Origin: Desulforamulus ruminis DSM 2154
GTDB taxonomy: Bacteria > Bacillota > Desulfotomaculia > Desulfotomaculales > Desulfotomaculaceae
DNA length: 64,000 nucleotides
Reading direction: 5' to 3'
Assembly: GCF_000215085.1 (NCBI RefSeq)
Contig: NC_015589.1
Location: 3,112,120-3,176,119 of the forward strand
Made by a program: the position numbers and the translations under genes. Position 1 is the first letter of the stretch, and each line of letters begins with the position of its first letter. Of this stretch, positions 19,288 through 26,481 are shown one piece after another. The notes beneath the pieces are model-generated. The model searched no databases. It was given only the letters and a program-made list of their open reading frames with translations, and was not told the origin of the DNA.

Positions 19288-21198
19288 TTACCGCCGAAGA
19301 GCTTTAAATTTAAACTCTTTTTTAACACCGGAACTCCGGTTGAGTACGGTTTTGACAATTTCTTCTGCGTTTAAGCCCAGATTTGCTTTTAAAATACCGG
19401 GTTTGCCATGCTCCACGAAACTGTCGGGAATTCCCAGCCGTTTTACCTTACAGTCGGCAAGGCCGGCCGATTCAAGCAACTCCAGGACGGCGCTGCCAAA
19501 ACCGCCCATTAATACATGTTCTTCAATGGTAACAACATTCCGGGTTAACCGGGCATAAGTCAAAATCAATTCCCGGTCTAGGGGCTTGATAAAGCGGGGA
19601 TTGACCACCGCCGCCCGTACCCCTTCGGCTGCCAGCGCATCCGCAGCCTTCAGGGCTTCTTCTACCAGGTTGCCCACCGCCAGCAGCAGTACGTCTTCGC
19701 CTTTCCGCAAGACCTCTCCCTTACCCAGGGGCAGGGCTTTTAATTCCCGGTCCAGTTCAATCCCTGTACCGGCTCCCCGGGGATAACGCACAGCCATGGG
19801 CCCCGGGTGCAGAATGGCGGTATGCAAAGCGTGCTGCAGTTCATTTTCATCCTTAGGCGCCACAATAACCAGATTGGGTATGTTTCTTAAAAAGGAAAGA
19901 TCGAATACCCCGTGGTGCGTAGGCCCGTCGTCACCAACCAGCCCCGCCCGGTCTAAGGCAAAGGTTACCGGCAGGTTCTGCAGGCAGACATCATGGAGCA
20001 CCTGATCGTAGGCCCGCTGCATAAAGGTGGAATAGATGGCGGTTACCGGTCTGTAACCGCTTGCCGCCAGGCCCGCGGCCATGGTAATGGCATGCTGTTC
20101 GGCAATCCCCACATCAAAATACCGGGCAGGGTATTCTTTGGCAAACAGGTTTAAACCGGTACCGCCGGGCATGGCGGCAGTAATGCCGACAATTTTTTCA
20201 TTGTCCCGGGCCAGTTTTACCAGGGTTTTGCCAAAAACCTCCGTATAGCTGGGCGGCCCGCCTTCCGCCTTTTTAATGTTGCCGGTTTCCACGTCAAAAG
20301 GTCCCACTCCATGGAAGCGATCCGGATTGCTTTCCGCCGGTTTATATCCCCTGCCCTTTTGAGTCAGCACATGGACCAACACCGGCCCATTGGCCGATTT
20401 GGCCTGCTGCAGCAGGGTCATGACCGCCTTGAGGTCATGTCCGTCCACCGGTCCCAAATAAGTAAAACCCAATTCCTCAAAGAACATTCCCGGGACAACC
20501 AAATATTTCAAACCATCCTTTAACCGGTCCACCACTTTCAATAGTTTAGCGCCGTGAGGGATTTTGTGTAAAAGGTCGGCGATTTCATCCTTGCTGCGAT
20601 AGTACTTGGGGTCGGTGCGGAGGCGGCTTAAATAACCGGACAGGGCTCCCACGTTGGGTGCAATGGACATTTCATTATCATTTAGCACCACAATTAAATT
20701 CTTCTGCAGGTGCCCGGCATGATTTAACGCCTCAAAGGCCATGCCCCCGGTCATGGAGCCGTCCCCGATCACCGCCACCACGGAGTATTCTTCACCTTTT
20801 AAATCTCTGGCCAGGGCCATCCCCAGGGCCGCGGAAATGGAGGTGCTGCTGTGGCCGGTGCCAAAAGCGTCATGAACGCTCTCATCGGGCCGGGGAAACC
20901 CACTGATTCCTCCGTACTGGCGCAGGGTGCCAAACTGGGACTGCCGGCCGGTAAGCAATTTGTGAACATAGCTCTGATGACCCACATCCCAGATGATCCG
21001 GTCAACAGAAGTGTTGAAAACTCTGTGCAGAGCCAGGGTTAGTTCCACCACCCCCAGATTGGGAGCCAGGTGCCCCCCGGTCACCGCCACCGTTTCCACA
21101 ATTTTTTCCCGGATTTCCTGCGCCAGGATTTGTAACTGCGGAATTTTTAAATTTTGCAAATCCTGGGGACTATAGATGGTTTTCAATATCGACGTCAA
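19288..21198 (-). CDS. dxs: 1-deoxy-D-xylulose-5-phosphate synthase
   Basis: A 636-aa thiamine diphosphate enzyme catalysing the first step of the MEP isoprenoid pathway from pyruvate and glyceraldehyde-3-phosphate. Motifs: [13 protein letters not shown], the [14 protein letters not shown] segment, [18 protein letters not shown] (TPP site) and [18 protein letters not shown]. Start TTG 21198. Close to ispA, so precursor and prenyl chain synthesis share an operon, with OLE RNA and oapA in between. Confidence 0.97.
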
Positions 21199-21213: not shown

Positions 21214-21795
21214 TTATGATCTGGCCCGGCTTTTCTTACCCACACTACGGCCAGTCAGTTTTTCCCAGTAGGCTAAAATTCTACCTACAAAAAATATTAC
21301 ATCATTGCACCGTTCCAAAGCTACTGTTTTTCCCAAAGCTTTTCCTGAAACCGTAATGGAAGCAATGAAGGCGGTGATTAAAATGTTGGCCACCGCGGCA
21401 TCCACCCCTGGATTGTTCATTATAATTTTAACCACAATGGAGATCCCTAAAGCACCACTGACGGTGTTCACAATATCCCCAATGACATCATTGGTAATAT
21501 TGGCCACTTTATCGGCGTTGCGTAACAAAAAAACACCTTCTTTAGCCCCGCTTACACGTTTGGCGGCTTTGGCGTGAAAAGGTGCCTCCTGGGCTGCGGT
21601 AACTGCCGTTCCGATGATATCGGCAAGTATACCGATGAGTATAATGGTTAATAATCCTATAAAGGATATAAGTACGCTATTTACAATTCTTGTGAGGGCT
21701 TCAGAGGCGACGGAAAAGAGTACCGCTAAAATGAAGGAACCAAAAAACACAAAAATCAAATATTTTTTGGAAAGATTGGATTTATGGTTGCCCAA
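21214..21795 (-). CDS. oapA: OLE-associated membrane protein OapA
   Basis: A ~193-aa membrane protein with four hydrophobic helices (roughly residues 11-31, 36-60, 110-130 and 140-160). A lysine/arginine-rich central loop (HAKAAKRVSGAKEGVFLLRNADKVANI) and a basic C-terminus could contact RNA. Its place directly downstream of the OLE RNA and upstream of dxs is that of OapA, which binds OLE and anchors it to the membrane in Bacillus halodurans. I prefer the TTG start at 21795 (AGGAG seven bases upstream) over ATG 21810, which lacks a ribosome binding site. Confidence 0.85.
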   Translation of the reverse strand: MGNHKSNLSKKYLIFVFFGSFILAVLFSVASEALTRIVNSVLISFIGLLTIILIGILADIIGTAVTAAQEAPFHAKAAKRVSGAKEGVFLLRNADKVANITNDVIGDIVNTVSGALGISIVVKIIMNNPGVDAAVANILITAFIASITVSGKALGKTVALERCNDVIFFVGRILAYWEKLTGRSVGKKSRARS

Positions 21796-21833
21796 AAAAA
21801 TTCTCCTCATAACGAATCTATGTATGAAATTTG

Positions 21834-22420
21834 AATAAGTGACAGCAGACCAGGTAAATGTTGTGGCTTAGGTCCAGCAGGTTTTCCCATAACGGTACCG
21901 GATGTCGCCAAACCGGCGGTTTCCCATTAAACCGTATCTGAGGCGTCACCGCGCTCAGGGCTAGATTACCACTTAGTCCACACTTTAATCCCTGGCCTGC
22001 CCCGGCGGCAGCCGAACAGCCTAGGAGTTTTCCCCGACAGCATCCATCTTTCTTAGACTCTTTTGCAGCAAGGGTTTCATCCCACAATCACAAATTACGG
22101 GCCCGTATTCTGTGATCGTACCAGAGGAATCCACCGGTGCCACTTCAAGTCAGGCTACACTGCACGCAGCTTCCTACCACATGCAGGTTCACAACCAAGC
22201 CGTAGTTTGTCGTCTCCAACGCTCCACATACTTGGGTCTCCACGGGGACGGGGTCAATGCCCACATGCCATTGCAGGTTGCCCTTTCCCCTTAACTCCCA
22301 GTACCAGCCCCCAACTGGGCGTCGAAAGCCAGCGCCAGGAACTTCATCGTTGTGCCCTTAACGGATTTTTAGGCCCGCCTTCAGAAAGTGAATGCTGACT
22401 AGAATACTGTATCACTTATT
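21834..22420 (-). ncRNA. ole: OLE RNA (ornate large extremophilic RNA)
   Basis: A ~590-nt GC-rich stretch without a credible reading frame lies between ispA and oapA, exactly where OLE RNA is encoded in anaerobic and extremophilic Firmicutes. Its ends pair: AATAAGTGA at the 5' end (22412-22420) is complementary to TCACTTATT at the 3' end (21834-21842), a 9-bp closing helix continued by CAG/CTG. A sigma-A promoter sits just upstream (22447-22475). OLE forms a membrane ribonucleoprotein with OapA and is linked to Mg2+, cold and ethanol stress. I could not compare with the family's secondary-structure model. Confidence 0.85.
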
Positions 22421-22446
22421 ATTTAGGAATTTTTTACACGTTATGC

Positions 22447-22475
22447 ATTATAACATGTTCATGTTCAAGTCTCAA
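22447..22475 (-). promoter_or_regulatory. Sigma-A promoter of the OLE RNA
   Basis: TTGAGA (22470-22475) and TATAAT (22447-22452) are 17 bases apart on the minus strand, a near-consensus promoter. Predicted start near 22440, some 20 bases before the closing helix. It would let OLE, oapA, dxs and downstream genes be transcribed independently of ispA. Confidence 0.75.
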
Positions 22476-22573: not shown

Positions 22574-23464
22574 TTAATGATCTCTATTGATGATAAAATG
22601 CATGATGGAACGTAAAAATTCCCCTTTGGGGCCAAAAATTTTAAGAGCAGCCACCGCTTCCTCAGCAGCCAAGCCGGCCATTTTCCTGGCCTTTTCCATC
22701 CCATACAGGGCCGGATAGGTGGCTTTTTGATTTTTGACATCGCTGCCAACAGGTTTGCCGATTTTTTCTTGCTCGCCTTCAATATCCAGTAAATCGTCTT
22801 TAATTTGAAAGGCTAAACCCATTTGTTCCGCATAAACGGTTAACGCCTGAAGCTGTTCTTCCGAGGCCCCGTTTAAAATGGCGCCCGATCGGATAGCCGC
22901 CCTAAAAAGGGCGCCCGTTTTGTGGCGGTGGATGTACTCCAGCACCGAAGCCTCCACTTTTTTGTTTTCCGACAGGGTGTCCACCACCTGTCCGCCGATT
23001 AATCCCTGGGAACCCGCAGCCTGAGCGATTTCCACAACCACCCGGTTCACCGCTTGCGGGGAAAATTTCCCGGCACTTTGACCCATTAGCTCAAAGGCGG
23101 TGGTTAAAAGGGCGTCGCCGGCCAAAATCGCCATGGCTTCTCCATATACCTTGTGGTTGGTGGGCCTCCCCCGGCGGAAATCATCATTATCCATGGCCGG
23201 CAGATCATCGTGCACCAAGGAATAAGTATGAATCAGTTCCAGGGCGCAGGCCACCGGCATGGCAGAGGCGGCACCGGCCTCGTCCCCCACCGCCTCTGCA
23301 GCGGCCAGCACCAGGATGGGTCTTAATCGTTTGCCGCCGGCAAAGACACTGTAGCGCATGGCCTCGTGAATCACCGCCGGATGCTCATGATCCGGGGGCA
23401 GATACTTCTCCAGGGCCTCATCCACCAGCCGGGCTCTTCTTTTTAATTCCTCTTTTATATTCAC
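22574..23464 (-). CDS. ispA: Farnesyl/geranyl diphosphate synthase (IspA family)
   Basis: A 296-aa trans-prenyltransferase condensing IPP with allylic diphosphates. Both aspartate-rich motifs are present: [14 protein letters not shown] (first, DDxx(xx)D) and the second in KDDLLDIEG, plus GGKRLRP. I start at GTG 23464, which overlaps the xseB stop (GTGA) and follows GGAGG; the frame is open to 23557 but that would lie inside xseB. Provides C15/C20 prenyl chains downstream of dxs. Confidence 0.94.
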
Positions 23465-23700
23465 TTGCCTTTTCCTCCCGGTAAAGTTGCAGGCTCCTCG
23501 CTTACACTGCCATCGGCCAGTAAGACGCTGATCTTTTGCTCCGCTGCGGCCAAACAATGGTTGCAGTATTTAGAAAGGTTTATTCCTTCGGCAAAGAGTT
23601 CCAGCGCCTGGTCCAGGGGCAGTTGGCTGTTTTCCATTTCCCTGACCACTTCTTCCAGGCGGGTTAATGCCTCTTCAAAGGTCATTTCTTGCGAACCCAT
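23461..23700 (-). CDS. xseB: Exodeoxyribonuclease VII small subunit
   Basis: A 79-aa Xse[52 protein letters not shown] is the complete family pattern. It is the small subunit of the single-strand-specific exonuclease VII with XseA. Here folD and fchA separate it from xseA. Its stop overlaps the ispA GTG. Confidence 0.95.
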
Positions 23701-23715
23701 GTTTAACCCCCATTA

Positions 23716-24348
23716 TCATTTCATTCTTGTTTTCACGGTTTCCAGGACGTTTCTGCAAAGCTCTTCTCCCCGCAGGGCCAGTCTCTCTTTTTCCGCAGCC
23801 AGATGGTAGACCACCTGCCGGTCTTGAAGGTAGGGCAAATTGGCCTCAACCATCACTAAGGCCCCTTTTAAAGAAGCTTCCAGCAGGTGCGTCCCTACGC
23901 CCACATCGCTGATGGCCAGCTTGCTGCCCAGGGAAGCCAGCCGGGCGGCCAGTTCAAGATTCTCCACACAGGCTGCCGCAATGTCCAAGGGCACCCCGGC
24001 GGATAAAAGGGCCGCCTGCTGCTTGCTTTTCTCCCTTGCCGCCTTTTGTTCTTCCGTCTCCCTGGGCATAGCCAGGGCCGCCATAAACTGCTGAAAGGCC
24101 TCCATATCCTGCCGGGCCAGATCCTGCAATTTTTCCCGTTGCCCTTCTATGGCCCCGAGGATTTCCTGAATTTCCACCTCTACATCCCGGTACTTTTCTT
24201 TACCGCTGGTAATCCGGGCCACCATGGCCAGCAGCCCGCAAGCAAGGCCGCCGGTCATGGCGCAGACGCCTCCGCCTCCCGGTTCCGGCTCTGCCGAAGC
24301 GGTCCGGTCAAACAATTCCTTTACGGTCCACTGCAGATAATTTAACAT
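23716..24348 (-). CDS. fchA: Formimidoyl-THF cyclodeaminase-like protein (FchA family)
   Basis: A ~210-aa protein of the FTCD C-terminal family, with PGGGGVCAMTGGLACGLLAMVARIT near the N-terminus and a helical body. In one-carbon metabolism FchA-type proteins act as methenyl-THF cyclohydrolase or formimino-THF cyclodeaminase. I start at ATG 24348, which overlaps the folD stop and follows AGAGG; an in-frame start at 24369 lies inside folD. The folD pairing supports a folate role; which of the two reactions is unclear. Confidence 0.86.
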   Translation of the reverse strand: MLNYLQWTVKELFDRTASAEPEPGGGGVCAMTGGLACGLLAMVARITSGKEKYRDVEVEIQEILGAIEGQREKLQDLARQDMEAFQQFMAALAMPRETEEQKAAREKSKQQAALLSAGVPLDIAAACVENLELAARLASLGSKLAISDVGVGTHLLEASLKGALVMVEANLPYLQDRQVVYHLAAEKERLALRGEELCRNVLETVKTRMK

Positions 24349-25220
24349 GAAACCTCTGCTTCCTCCCATTTCCTGGCCTGTTCCTGCAATTGAATGCCCT
24401 TTACCAGGTTCTTCAGCATTAAAACGGTGGTCAGGCTGCCTACGCCTCCCGGTACAGGAGTAATGGCTCCGGCCACTTCCTTTAGGTTGGCAAAGTCCAC
24501 ATCACCCATGATTTGTCCGTCCACTTCACAAATTCCTGCGTCCACCACAACCGCTCCGGGTTTAATCATGCCGGCGGCAATCAAGCCGGGCTTACCCACG
24601 GCGGAAACAACAATATCCCCTTGCCGGGTAAAGTCCGCTAAGTTGCGGGTGCCGGTGTGGCAGACGGACACCGTGGCGTTTTCCGCCAGGGCCATAAAAA
24701 CCAGGGGTTTTCCTACGGTCTCACCTCTGCCCACAATGACCATGTGTTTGCCCGCCAGGGTAATTCCGGATCTTTTCATGATTTCCAGACAGCTTAAGGG
24801 GGTGGCCGGCTGCAGGCAGACGCCGCCGCTGATTAGATGTCCCCGGTTAAAGGGATGCAGGCCGTCCACATCCTTTAAAGGCGAAACCGCTTCCATCACC
24901 CGCTGTTTATTGATGTGCTTGGGCAGGGGCATCATCATTAAAATTCCGTGCACCAGAGGATCACTGTTTAGTTCTTCAATTTTAAGCTTTACATCCAATT
25001 CACAGGCGCTTTCCGGCAGGTCATGCTGTTCAAAGATCACTCCGGCCTTGCTGCTAACTTTATTTAAAAATTTAGCATAAGCCAGGGAAGCCGGATCAGT
25101 GCCTACAATGAGCACCGCCAGCTTGGGGTTAATTCCTCTTTCCTGCAACTGAAGCAGTTCATTTTTAAGTTCTTCCCGGAGAATATCGGCAACTTTCTTG
25201 CCATCCAGTATTTGAGTCAT
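24342..25220 (-). CDS. folD: Methylene-THF dehydrogenase/methenyl-THF cyclohydrolase FolD
   Basis: A 292-aa bifunctional folate enzyme. Motifs: DPASLAYAKFLNKVSSKAG (with the catalytic lysine), PLPKHINKQRVMEAVSPLKDVDGLHPFN, and the NADP-binding IVGRGETVGKPLVFM. It interconverts methylene- and formyl-THF and in acetogenic or sulfate-reducing relatives also serves the methyl branch of the Wood-Ljungdahl pathway. Start ATG 25220. Confidence 0.96.
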   Translation of the reverse strand: MTQILDGKKVADILREELKNELLQLQERGINPKLAVLIVGTDPASLAYAKFLNKVSSKAGVIFEQHDLPESACELDVKLKIEELNSDPLVHGILMMMPLPKHINKQRVMEAVSPLKDVDGLHPFNRGHLISGGVCLQPATPLSCLEIMKRSGITLAGKHMVIVGRGETVGKPLVFMALAENATVSVCHTGTRNLADFTRQGDIVVSAVGKPGLIAAGMIKPGAVVVDAGICEVDGQIMGDVDFANLKEVAGAITPVPGGVGSLTTVLMLKNLVKGIQLQEQARKWEEAEVSC

Positions 25221-25257: not shown

Positions 25258-26454
25258 TTATTGATGTACTTCCTCCACCGAGCAATCCGCACAGCCTGAA
25301 TTTAGCCGTACTTGCACCCGTTGCCCGATGGTCAGGGATCCGGCGTCCGTGACGACCTTTCCCTCGGGCGTGCTGCAGATGCTGTAACCCCGGGCCAGGG
25401 TGGCTAAGGGGCTTAATACTTGCAATTTGCCCGCCAAATGAGACAGGGCGGCGGATTTATCCGCCAGGCTTAGTTTTGTCCCCCGCTCCAGGCTGGAAGT
25501 GAGTGCATCCAGCGCCTGCTGCCGGTTGCCGGTAATTAAGTAGGGACGCTGTAAGGTTTGCTGATTGGCCGCCAGGGCCAGCCGCTGCCGCTTACGTTCC
25601 ACAAGATTCAACAGGCCCTTTTCCATCTGCTGCTTTATGGCGGATAGATAGCGCGTCATGTCCCCATGGTCGGGCACCACCATCTCCGCCGCGGCGGAAG
25701 GGGTTGGCGCCCTTAAATCCGCCACCATGTCGGCAATGGTATAGTCCGTTTCATGCCCTACGGCAGAAATGACGGGAATCCTTGAACCGGCAATGGCCCA
25801 GGCCACTTCTTCGGTGTTAAAGGCCCATAGTTCCTCCAGAGAACCGCCGCCACGGCCCATGATAAGCACATCCACGTCCGGCAGGCGGTTCAACTGCTCC
25901 ATGGCCCGGCAAATATCCGGCGGCGCACCTTGTCCCTGAACCAACACCGGTGCAACAATCACTTGCAGCCCCGGCCAGCGGCGGCGAAGAATCTTCAGCA
26001 TATCCTGCAGGGCCGCTCCCGTAGGAGAGGTCACAATCCCAACGGTTCCGGGAATGCGGGGTAGAGGGCGCTTTCGCTCCGCTGCAAATAGCCCCTGGGC
26101 GGCCAGCTTTTGTTTCATCTGTTCAAAAGCAATGTAAAGGGCTCCGATCCCCTCGGGTTCCATCTCCTCGGCATAAAGCTGGTAACTGCCGTCCCGTTCA
26201 TAGACGGAAAGATAGCCCCGAATAATCACCGACATGCCGTTTTCCGGGCGAAAAACCAGGTTTCTGGCTCTGGAGCGGAACATCACGGTTTTTAAACAGG
26301 AATCCCGGTCTTTCAGGGTCAGGTAAATGTGCCCGGAAGTATGGAGTTTAAAGTTTGATATTTCCCCCTTTACCCATACGTTGGCCAAAAGAGGGTCCCT
26401 GGCAAACTTTTCTTTTATGTATTGGGTCAATTCCGAAACGGAAAGTATACGCAT
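25258..26454 (-). CDS. xseA: Exodeoxyribonuclease VII large subunit
   Basis: A ~398-aa XseA. The N-terminal OB fold (ILSVSELTQYIKEKFARDPLLANVWVKGEISNF) is followed by the catalytic domain with GIVTSPTGAALQDML, IMGRGGGSLEELWAFN and SAVGHETDYTIADMVADLRAPTPSAAAEM. I choose ATG 26454 (AAAGGA eight bases upstream) over the TTG at 26472. First gene of the long xseA-recN run; its promoter is not obvious in the repeat-containing spacer upstream. Confidence 0.95.
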   Translation of the reverse strand: MRILSVSELTQYIKEKFARDPLLANVWVKGEISNFKLHTSGHIYLTLKDRDSCLKTVMFRSRARNLVFRPENGMSVIIRGYLSVYERDGSYQLYAEEMEPEGIGALYIAFEQMKQKLAAQGLFAAERKRPLPRIPGTVGIVTSPTGAALQDMLKILRRRWPGLQVIVAPVLVQGQGAPPDICRAMEQLNRLPDVDVLIMGRGGGSLEELWAFNTEEVAWAIAGSRIPVISAVGHETDYTIADMVADLRAPTPSAAAEMVVPDHGDMTRYLSAIKQQMEKGLLNLVERKRQRLALAANQQTLQRPYLITGNRQQALDALTSSLERGTKLSLADKSAALSHLAGKLQVLSPLATLARGYSICSTPEGKVVTDAGSLTIGQRVQVRLNSGCADCSVEEVHQ

Positions 26455-26481
26455 GTCCCATTTCCTTTCCAAGCCCCTAAG

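Follow-up and report, generated by a model that had tools for sequence, protein, structure and literature searches.

The window analysed here, a stretch of 64,000 nucleotides of the Desulforamulus ruminis DSM 2154 genome (contig NC_015589.1, positions 3,112,120 to 3,176,119), carries on its minus strand the genes xseA, folD, an fchA-like gene, xseB and ispA, followed by a gap of 0.78 kb and then by oapA, dxs and tlyA. Same-strand open reading frames (ORFs) continue beyond tlyA down to recN; mnmM scores above its NCBIfam cut-off, and nadK, argR and recN are tentative assignments made by reading the ORFs. The initial annotation had placed an OLE RNA in the gap, within a cluster containing dxs, ispA and folate genes, and this neighbourhood is borne out: isoprenoid, folate and exonuclease VII genes surround it. 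The features are as follows.

25258-26472, minus strand: xseA, from domain scans
24342-25220, minus strand: folD, from domain scans
23716-24369, minus strand: fchA-like gene (FTCD_C) between folD and xseB; NCBIfam FchA score 154, below the cut-off of 275
23461-23700, minus strand: xseB, from domain scans
22574-23557, minus strand: ispA (polyprenyl / farnesyl diphosphate synthase), longest ORF, from ORF reading and domain scans
22447-22475, minus strand: OLE promoter, with -35 TTGAGA at 22475-22470, a 17-nt spacer and the extended -10 TGTTATAAT at 22455-22447
22411-22420, minus strand: 5' arm of the P1 helix, AAUAAGUGAU, from covariation in 143 distinct loci
21823-22431, minus strand: OLE RNA, full-length RF01071 match, model positions 1-616
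22099-22104, minus strand: GGGCCC, a palindrome in the loop of the long P9 hairpin, from the Rfam alignment; the published L9.3 kissing loop (PMC12286853) occupies this position and reads GGCC in the consensus
21834-21843, minus strand: 3' arm of the P1 helix, GUCACUUAUU, from covariation in the same 143 distinct loci
21819-21824, minus strand: UACAUA hexamer, proposed MazF/EndoA site, with a predicted cut U^ACAUA between 21824 and 21823
21214-21795, minus strand: oapA, with a probable TTG start at 21795, Shine-Dalgarno AGGAG at 21807-21803 and DxxxD motif DVIGD
19288-21198, minus strand: dxs, TIGR00204 at 891 bits

The covariance model of OLE (Rfam RF01071, gathering score 50 bits) matched 21823-22431 on the minus strand from model position 1 to 616, with 515.4 bits and an E-value of 2.1e-149; this search was the check set beforehand, and its outcome is significant. 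An E-value of this size excludes chance for the stretch as a whole. Because the model was matched from end to end, the host RNA is not a shortened variant: it shares the family, but not the reduction, of the OLE variant 1 and variant 2 RNAs of the TANB77 and RF39 clades (PMC11332333). The match is the single copy in a single-contig genome of 3.97 Mb. Its fold z-score is -4.67, none of 20 shuffles folding equally well (the MFE fold was compared with part of the published helices). It has 52% GC, and the stretch is indeed noncoding, as the ORFs of at least 60 aa inside it reach at most 111 aa and look chance-like. The full-length match, the adjoining oapA homologue with its DxxxD motif and the gene cluster all support the proposed identity. 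The locus is therefore a full-length member of the known OLE family and not a new kind of RNA. Published work already covers the OLE family and the genes around it, as well as a P1 stem (PMC12265935) and, in Bacillus halodurans, an own promoter (PMC9723947).

For comparison, we collected OLE loci from other genomes. OLE is present in 284 of the 398 genomes sampled in the phylum and in 63 of the 70 sampled in the order, including all seven of the host genus, which makes 332 genomes overall, 15 being shared between the two samples. The main set comprises 190 loci from 189 genomes and 61 families (loci L032-L039 lie outside it); its phylum loci are the best-scoring matches listed, so that low-scoring OLE RNAs are under-sampled, and Bacilli genomes were not sampled as such. 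Counts that depend on anchors at both ends of the RNA used smaller sets. In the first, eight of 99 loci were dropped (no anchors or a short flank, two of them lacking the region) and 91 kept; a further filter removed six with a doubtful 3' anchor and then duplicates, leaving 82. In the large anchored set, 26 of 177 were dropped and 151 kept, of which 143 are distinct; this set served for the hexamer, avoidance, UACAAA and P1 counts. One genome (G409) holds two OLE copies, one of 517.8 bits that adjoins oapA and one of 407.2 bits without oapA (L166, L167), the latter convergent with an rpmA-like gene.

The two ends of the RNA had been proposed to close through a 9-bp helix. This helix is real: AATAAGTGA (22420-22412) forms nine Watson-Crick pairs with TCACTTATT (21842-21834), and an additional U-G pair between 22411 and 21843 extends P1 to 10 bp in the window. 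The number of paired loci at pair positions 0-10 ranges from 91 to 143 among the 143 distinct loci, and ten of these 11 counts lie above the maximum of 500 permutations, which preserve column make-up and not relatedness; pair 2, nearly invariant, ties that maximum. Pairs 11-13 stay within the permutation range in the same loci. The register was read from the first 30 loci and then held fixed. Published OLE models include a stem whose name, P1, points to this outermost helix (PMC12265935). The structure line of RF01071 leaves both P1 ends unpaired, and the covarying helix could be added to the Rfam model.

The near-consensus promoter claimed upstream of the RNA is also present. Its -10 box TATAAT lies at 22452-22447, is preceded by TG and, together with the -35 box, matches the consensus at 11 of 12 positions. 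The bare count of promoter-like sites in the region is unexceptional (four found against 2.7 expected by shuffling). What makes the OLE promoter convincing is its conservation: a perfect TGnTATAAT occurs between -90 and +12 relative to the start of the model at 130 of 187 OLE loci (three of the 190 being skipped in this count) and in 45 of 61 families, against 1/187, 0/186 and 0/186 in equal windows further upstream. Among the 69 of 91 loci with the element, its distance to P1 ranges from 10 to 72 nt, and this varying spacing indicates that TGnTATAAT is a kept element rather than part of a copied block. The start predicted from the promoter, at about 22440, agrees with the 5' end that had been proposed near that position. 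An own promoter of ole has been described in B. halodurans (PMC9723947); in the promoter passages of OLE papers, including PMC10898510 and PMC12054373, we found no statement on its wider conservation. That the extended -10 promoter is so widely conserved shows OLE to be maintained as a transcription unit of its own inside a longer gene cluster. By eye, short repeats (GAACATGAACATG, and GTTAT/ATAAC around the -10) are visible in the spacer and start region (22447-22475) and could represent an operator.

The stretch can with high confidence be called an OLE RNA gene (ole) that has a dedicated promoter and P1; this confidence covers the three points jointly. The opposite reading, in which there is no RNA gene and the gap is an untranslated stretch or a decayed gene between ispA and oapA, gains something from the position within a run of same-strand genes. 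It is already refuted by the full-length match of 515.4 bits, and the covarying P1 and the conserved promoter speak against it as well, so that its probability is negligible.

The partners of OLE are represented in the host. According to published studies of Halalkalibacterium halodurans and cryo-EM work on further OLE RNAs, OLE dimerises and binds OapA at the membrane, and OLE and OapA, with OapB, OapC and bS21, form a stress-responsive RNP. The host locus resembles that of Halalkalibacterium (Bacillus) halodurans in having oapA directly downstream, an own promoter (PMC9723947) and a terminal P1 stem (PMC12265935), and the genome likewise contains OapB-, OapC- and bS21-like genes. The OapA of the window has no Pfam or NCBIfam match; in an iterated HMM search, OapA adjoins OLE in 92 of the 93 loci for which 690 nt or more of downstream DNA were available, and DxxxD is found in 170 of 180 OapA ORFs. 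Loci L192-L198 (families f4 and f143) show no OapA ORF within the 400 nt fetched downstream of OLE, where oapA may lie further off. Elsewhere in the host genome, an OapB-like KOW protein encoded between map- and infA-like genes matches OapB 7k9b (E 2.4e-10), and a bS21 gene is present. An OapC-like protein between rpoC- and rpsL-like ORFs matches YbxF 4lck (E 9.9e-12); it lies below its NCBIfam cut-offs and is assigned by gene position and YbxF similarity.

Two MpfA-type proteins (CNNM, CBS, CorC_HlyC) coexist with OLE in the host (L044:1456-2796, plus strand, and L045:796-2103, minus strand), their genes lying near 1.767 and 1.805 Mb. This is more than the extract of PMC11332333 calls typical, and contrasts with H. 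halodurans, from which the same source calls mpfA absent. The seven OLE-bearing genomes of the genus contain 2, 0, 2, 0, 1, 0 and 2 such proteins (four of seven have them). An anticorrelation of MpfA with OLE is not visible in the order, where CNNM matches over the cut-off occur in 19 of the 63 OLE-bearing genomes and in one of the seven that lack OLE.

Just past P1, the RNA carries an element that the initial annotation did not contain, a new and conserved feature of the OLE 3' boundary: the hexamer UACAUA. Its first base (21824) lies 11 nt from 21835, the 3' end proposed initially. With none of the 190 loci dropped, the 60-nt window spanning the Rfam 3' end contains UACAUA at 62 loci, in 25 of 61 families. 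Six equal windows inside OLE hold 0, 0, 1, 1, 0 and 0, four equal windows downstream hold 8, 3, 0 and 0, and upstream of OLE the counts in seven 37-nt windows range from 0 to 3 of 142. UACAUA is the commonest hexamer of the anchored 3' tail window and is found in 49 of 143 distinct tails, where shuffling predicts 2.2 and none of 300 shuffles gives more than 8, figures to be read with the knowledge that it was noticed in tails before counting, as one of many hexamers that could have stood out, and that both the anchored and the no-drop sets partly overlap the loci where it was first noticed. It is found in none of the 143 distinct leaders. In the 50 motif loci that also have anchors and an OapA match, its distance to the P1 end has a median of 2 nt and a standard deviation of 4.5, against a standard deviation of 37.2 for the distance to OapA. 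The hexamer tracks P1 and not OapA, and therefore belongs to the end of OLE rather than to the start of oapA. The sixth base is also favoured: of 70 UACAU occurrences in OLE tails, 63 have A as the next base. In H. halodurans, the reverse complement of a 3'-end primer for OLE1-637 (PMC12054373) implies UACAUA at nt 619-624. Mean unpaired probability over the 62 loci is 0.66 for the hexamer against 0.53 for surrounding segments; in the window itself, all three foldings predict a weak hairpin in which hexamer bases 1-3 are largely paired (unpaired 0.16-0.26), a point against cleavage at this site.

Several other readings of the hexamer were considered and rejected. As a -10 box of oapA, TACATA lacks a T at position 6, its next base is not fixed and its position is not fixed to oapA. 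Pairing with UAUGUA in the leader is found in none of 48 motif loci. Avoidance of UACAUA inside OLE is too weak (four seen against 6.35 expected).

The host genome encodes only one PF02452 protein, of 116 residues, which over residues 2-115 matches 4me7 and 4mdx, entries named EndoA that we take to be from B. subtilis, at E about 2e-50. By this similarity the host MazF is EndoA-like, and a short ORF beside the gene reads as antitoxin-like. In vivo, B. subtilis EndoA cuts U/ACAU only when A follows (PMC11780869), and the MazF of Symbiobacterium prefers UACAUA (PMC10893535). The OLE hexamer resembles the MazF/EndoA sites of Bacillota (UACAU, UACAUA) in being identical in sequence, in preferring A as sixth base and in occurring in a host with an EndoA-like toxin. 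In the extracts consulted, known sites are discussed in coding transcripts, whereas the host site would end a structured noncoding RNA. The specificity of MazF varies among such bacteria, since the enzyme of Desulforudis audaxviator prefers UACAAA (PMC8634880); this hexamer, tried as a substitute, occurs in none of 94 tails without UACAUA. AACATA is present in seven of these 94 tails against 0.7 expected, and slight activity on AACAUA is reported for Symbiobacterium MazF (PMC10893535).

UACAUA is present at 60 of 168 loci from genomes with a strong PF02452 match and at two of 22 without (p 0.014, uncorrected for relatedness), a strong match being a best E below 1e-29, a cut-off chosen after looking at the order table; at 1e-30 the counts are 60/167 and 2/23 (p 0.008, likewise uncorrected). 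In 52 families all sampled genomes have strong MazF matches, and 23 of these families show UACAUA; three families (three loci) have no strong match in any sampled genome, and none has the hexamer. Family f83 contains two loci with UACAUA but without a strong MazF match.

It is tempting to suggest how these elements might work together. Transcription from the dedicated promoter, starting at about 22440, would run through OLE into oapA, as our scan found no terminator-like site between them on the minus strand. P1 would fold, leaving UACAUA in the linker just past it, and the host EndoA-like MazF could then cut U^ACAUA at 21824/21823 and separate OLE from the oapA mRNA. Such a cut would leave an OLE 3' end 10 nt past P1 and an RNA of about 617 nt in all, little different from the reported ~630 nt of the B. 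halodurans RNA (PMC9723947); the oapA Shine-Dalgarno would stay on the downstream product. P1 may shield the new 3' end from exonucleases. Because MazF is a stress-released toxin, stress could shift the ratio of free OLE RNA to ole-oapA message. A literature search joining OLE RNA and MazF yielded one paper, on a Staphylococcus phage transcriptome, and one joining UACAUA, noncoding RNA and MazF yielded only the B. subtilis study (PMC11780869); in these searches we found no paper that names a MazF site terminating a structured noncoding RNA.

The proposal that MazF/EndoA makes or re-makes the OLE 3' end at UACAUA past P1 in many lineages of Bacillota is put forward tentatively, as falling just short of probable. 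The hexamer is anchored to P1, which would suit any factor acting at the OLE end, and it could signal another endonuclease, or a protein binding there, in place of MazF. UACAUA is missing from 128 of 190 loci, many with strong MazF matches; nine families represented by four loci or more lack it throughout the sample. Its absence from strong-MazF families such as f88, f95, f44 and f22 fits such a factor. So do two published observations: wild-type B. subtilis data show no EndoA cuts (PMC11780869), and OLE is abundant without stress (PMC9723947). Taken together, these two also mean that MazF cannot be the sole maker of the OLE end. On the other hand, the hexamer and its sixth-base preference equal the EndoA/MazF site of B. 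subtilis and Symbiobacterium, and UACAUA is rarer where no strong MazF was found (the 2/22 against 60/168 loci given above, uncorrected for relatedness). We regard a signal for some factor other than MazF as a serious possibility, if still a doubtful one.

The end could also be made by RNase P or another housekeeping nuclease, followed by exonuclease trimming to P1, with no part for UACAUA. Processing of the OLE 3' end in H. halodurans, and earlier work in which RNase P cuts OLE, are cited in PMC11332333, and P1 is general even though most loci lack the hexamer; the OLE literature examined, in extract, settles on no enzyme for this end. Such a route leaves the recurrence of UACAUA in 25 of 61 families unexplained, and we consider it unlikely. 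For cleavage by MazF, the likeliest form is a conditional route to the OLE 3' end, used in some lineages.

Few conserved bacterial RNAs that lack a known biochemical function are as large as OLE. A hexamer fixed to P1 in 25 of 61 sampled families would name a specific enzyme and predict the 3' end to the nucleotide. If cleavage by MazF takes place as proposed, a toxin-antitoxin system would set the amount of free OLE that the ole-oapA transcript yields under stress, and toxin activation would be physically linked to the OLE stress RNP, a link that we did not find in the literature searched.
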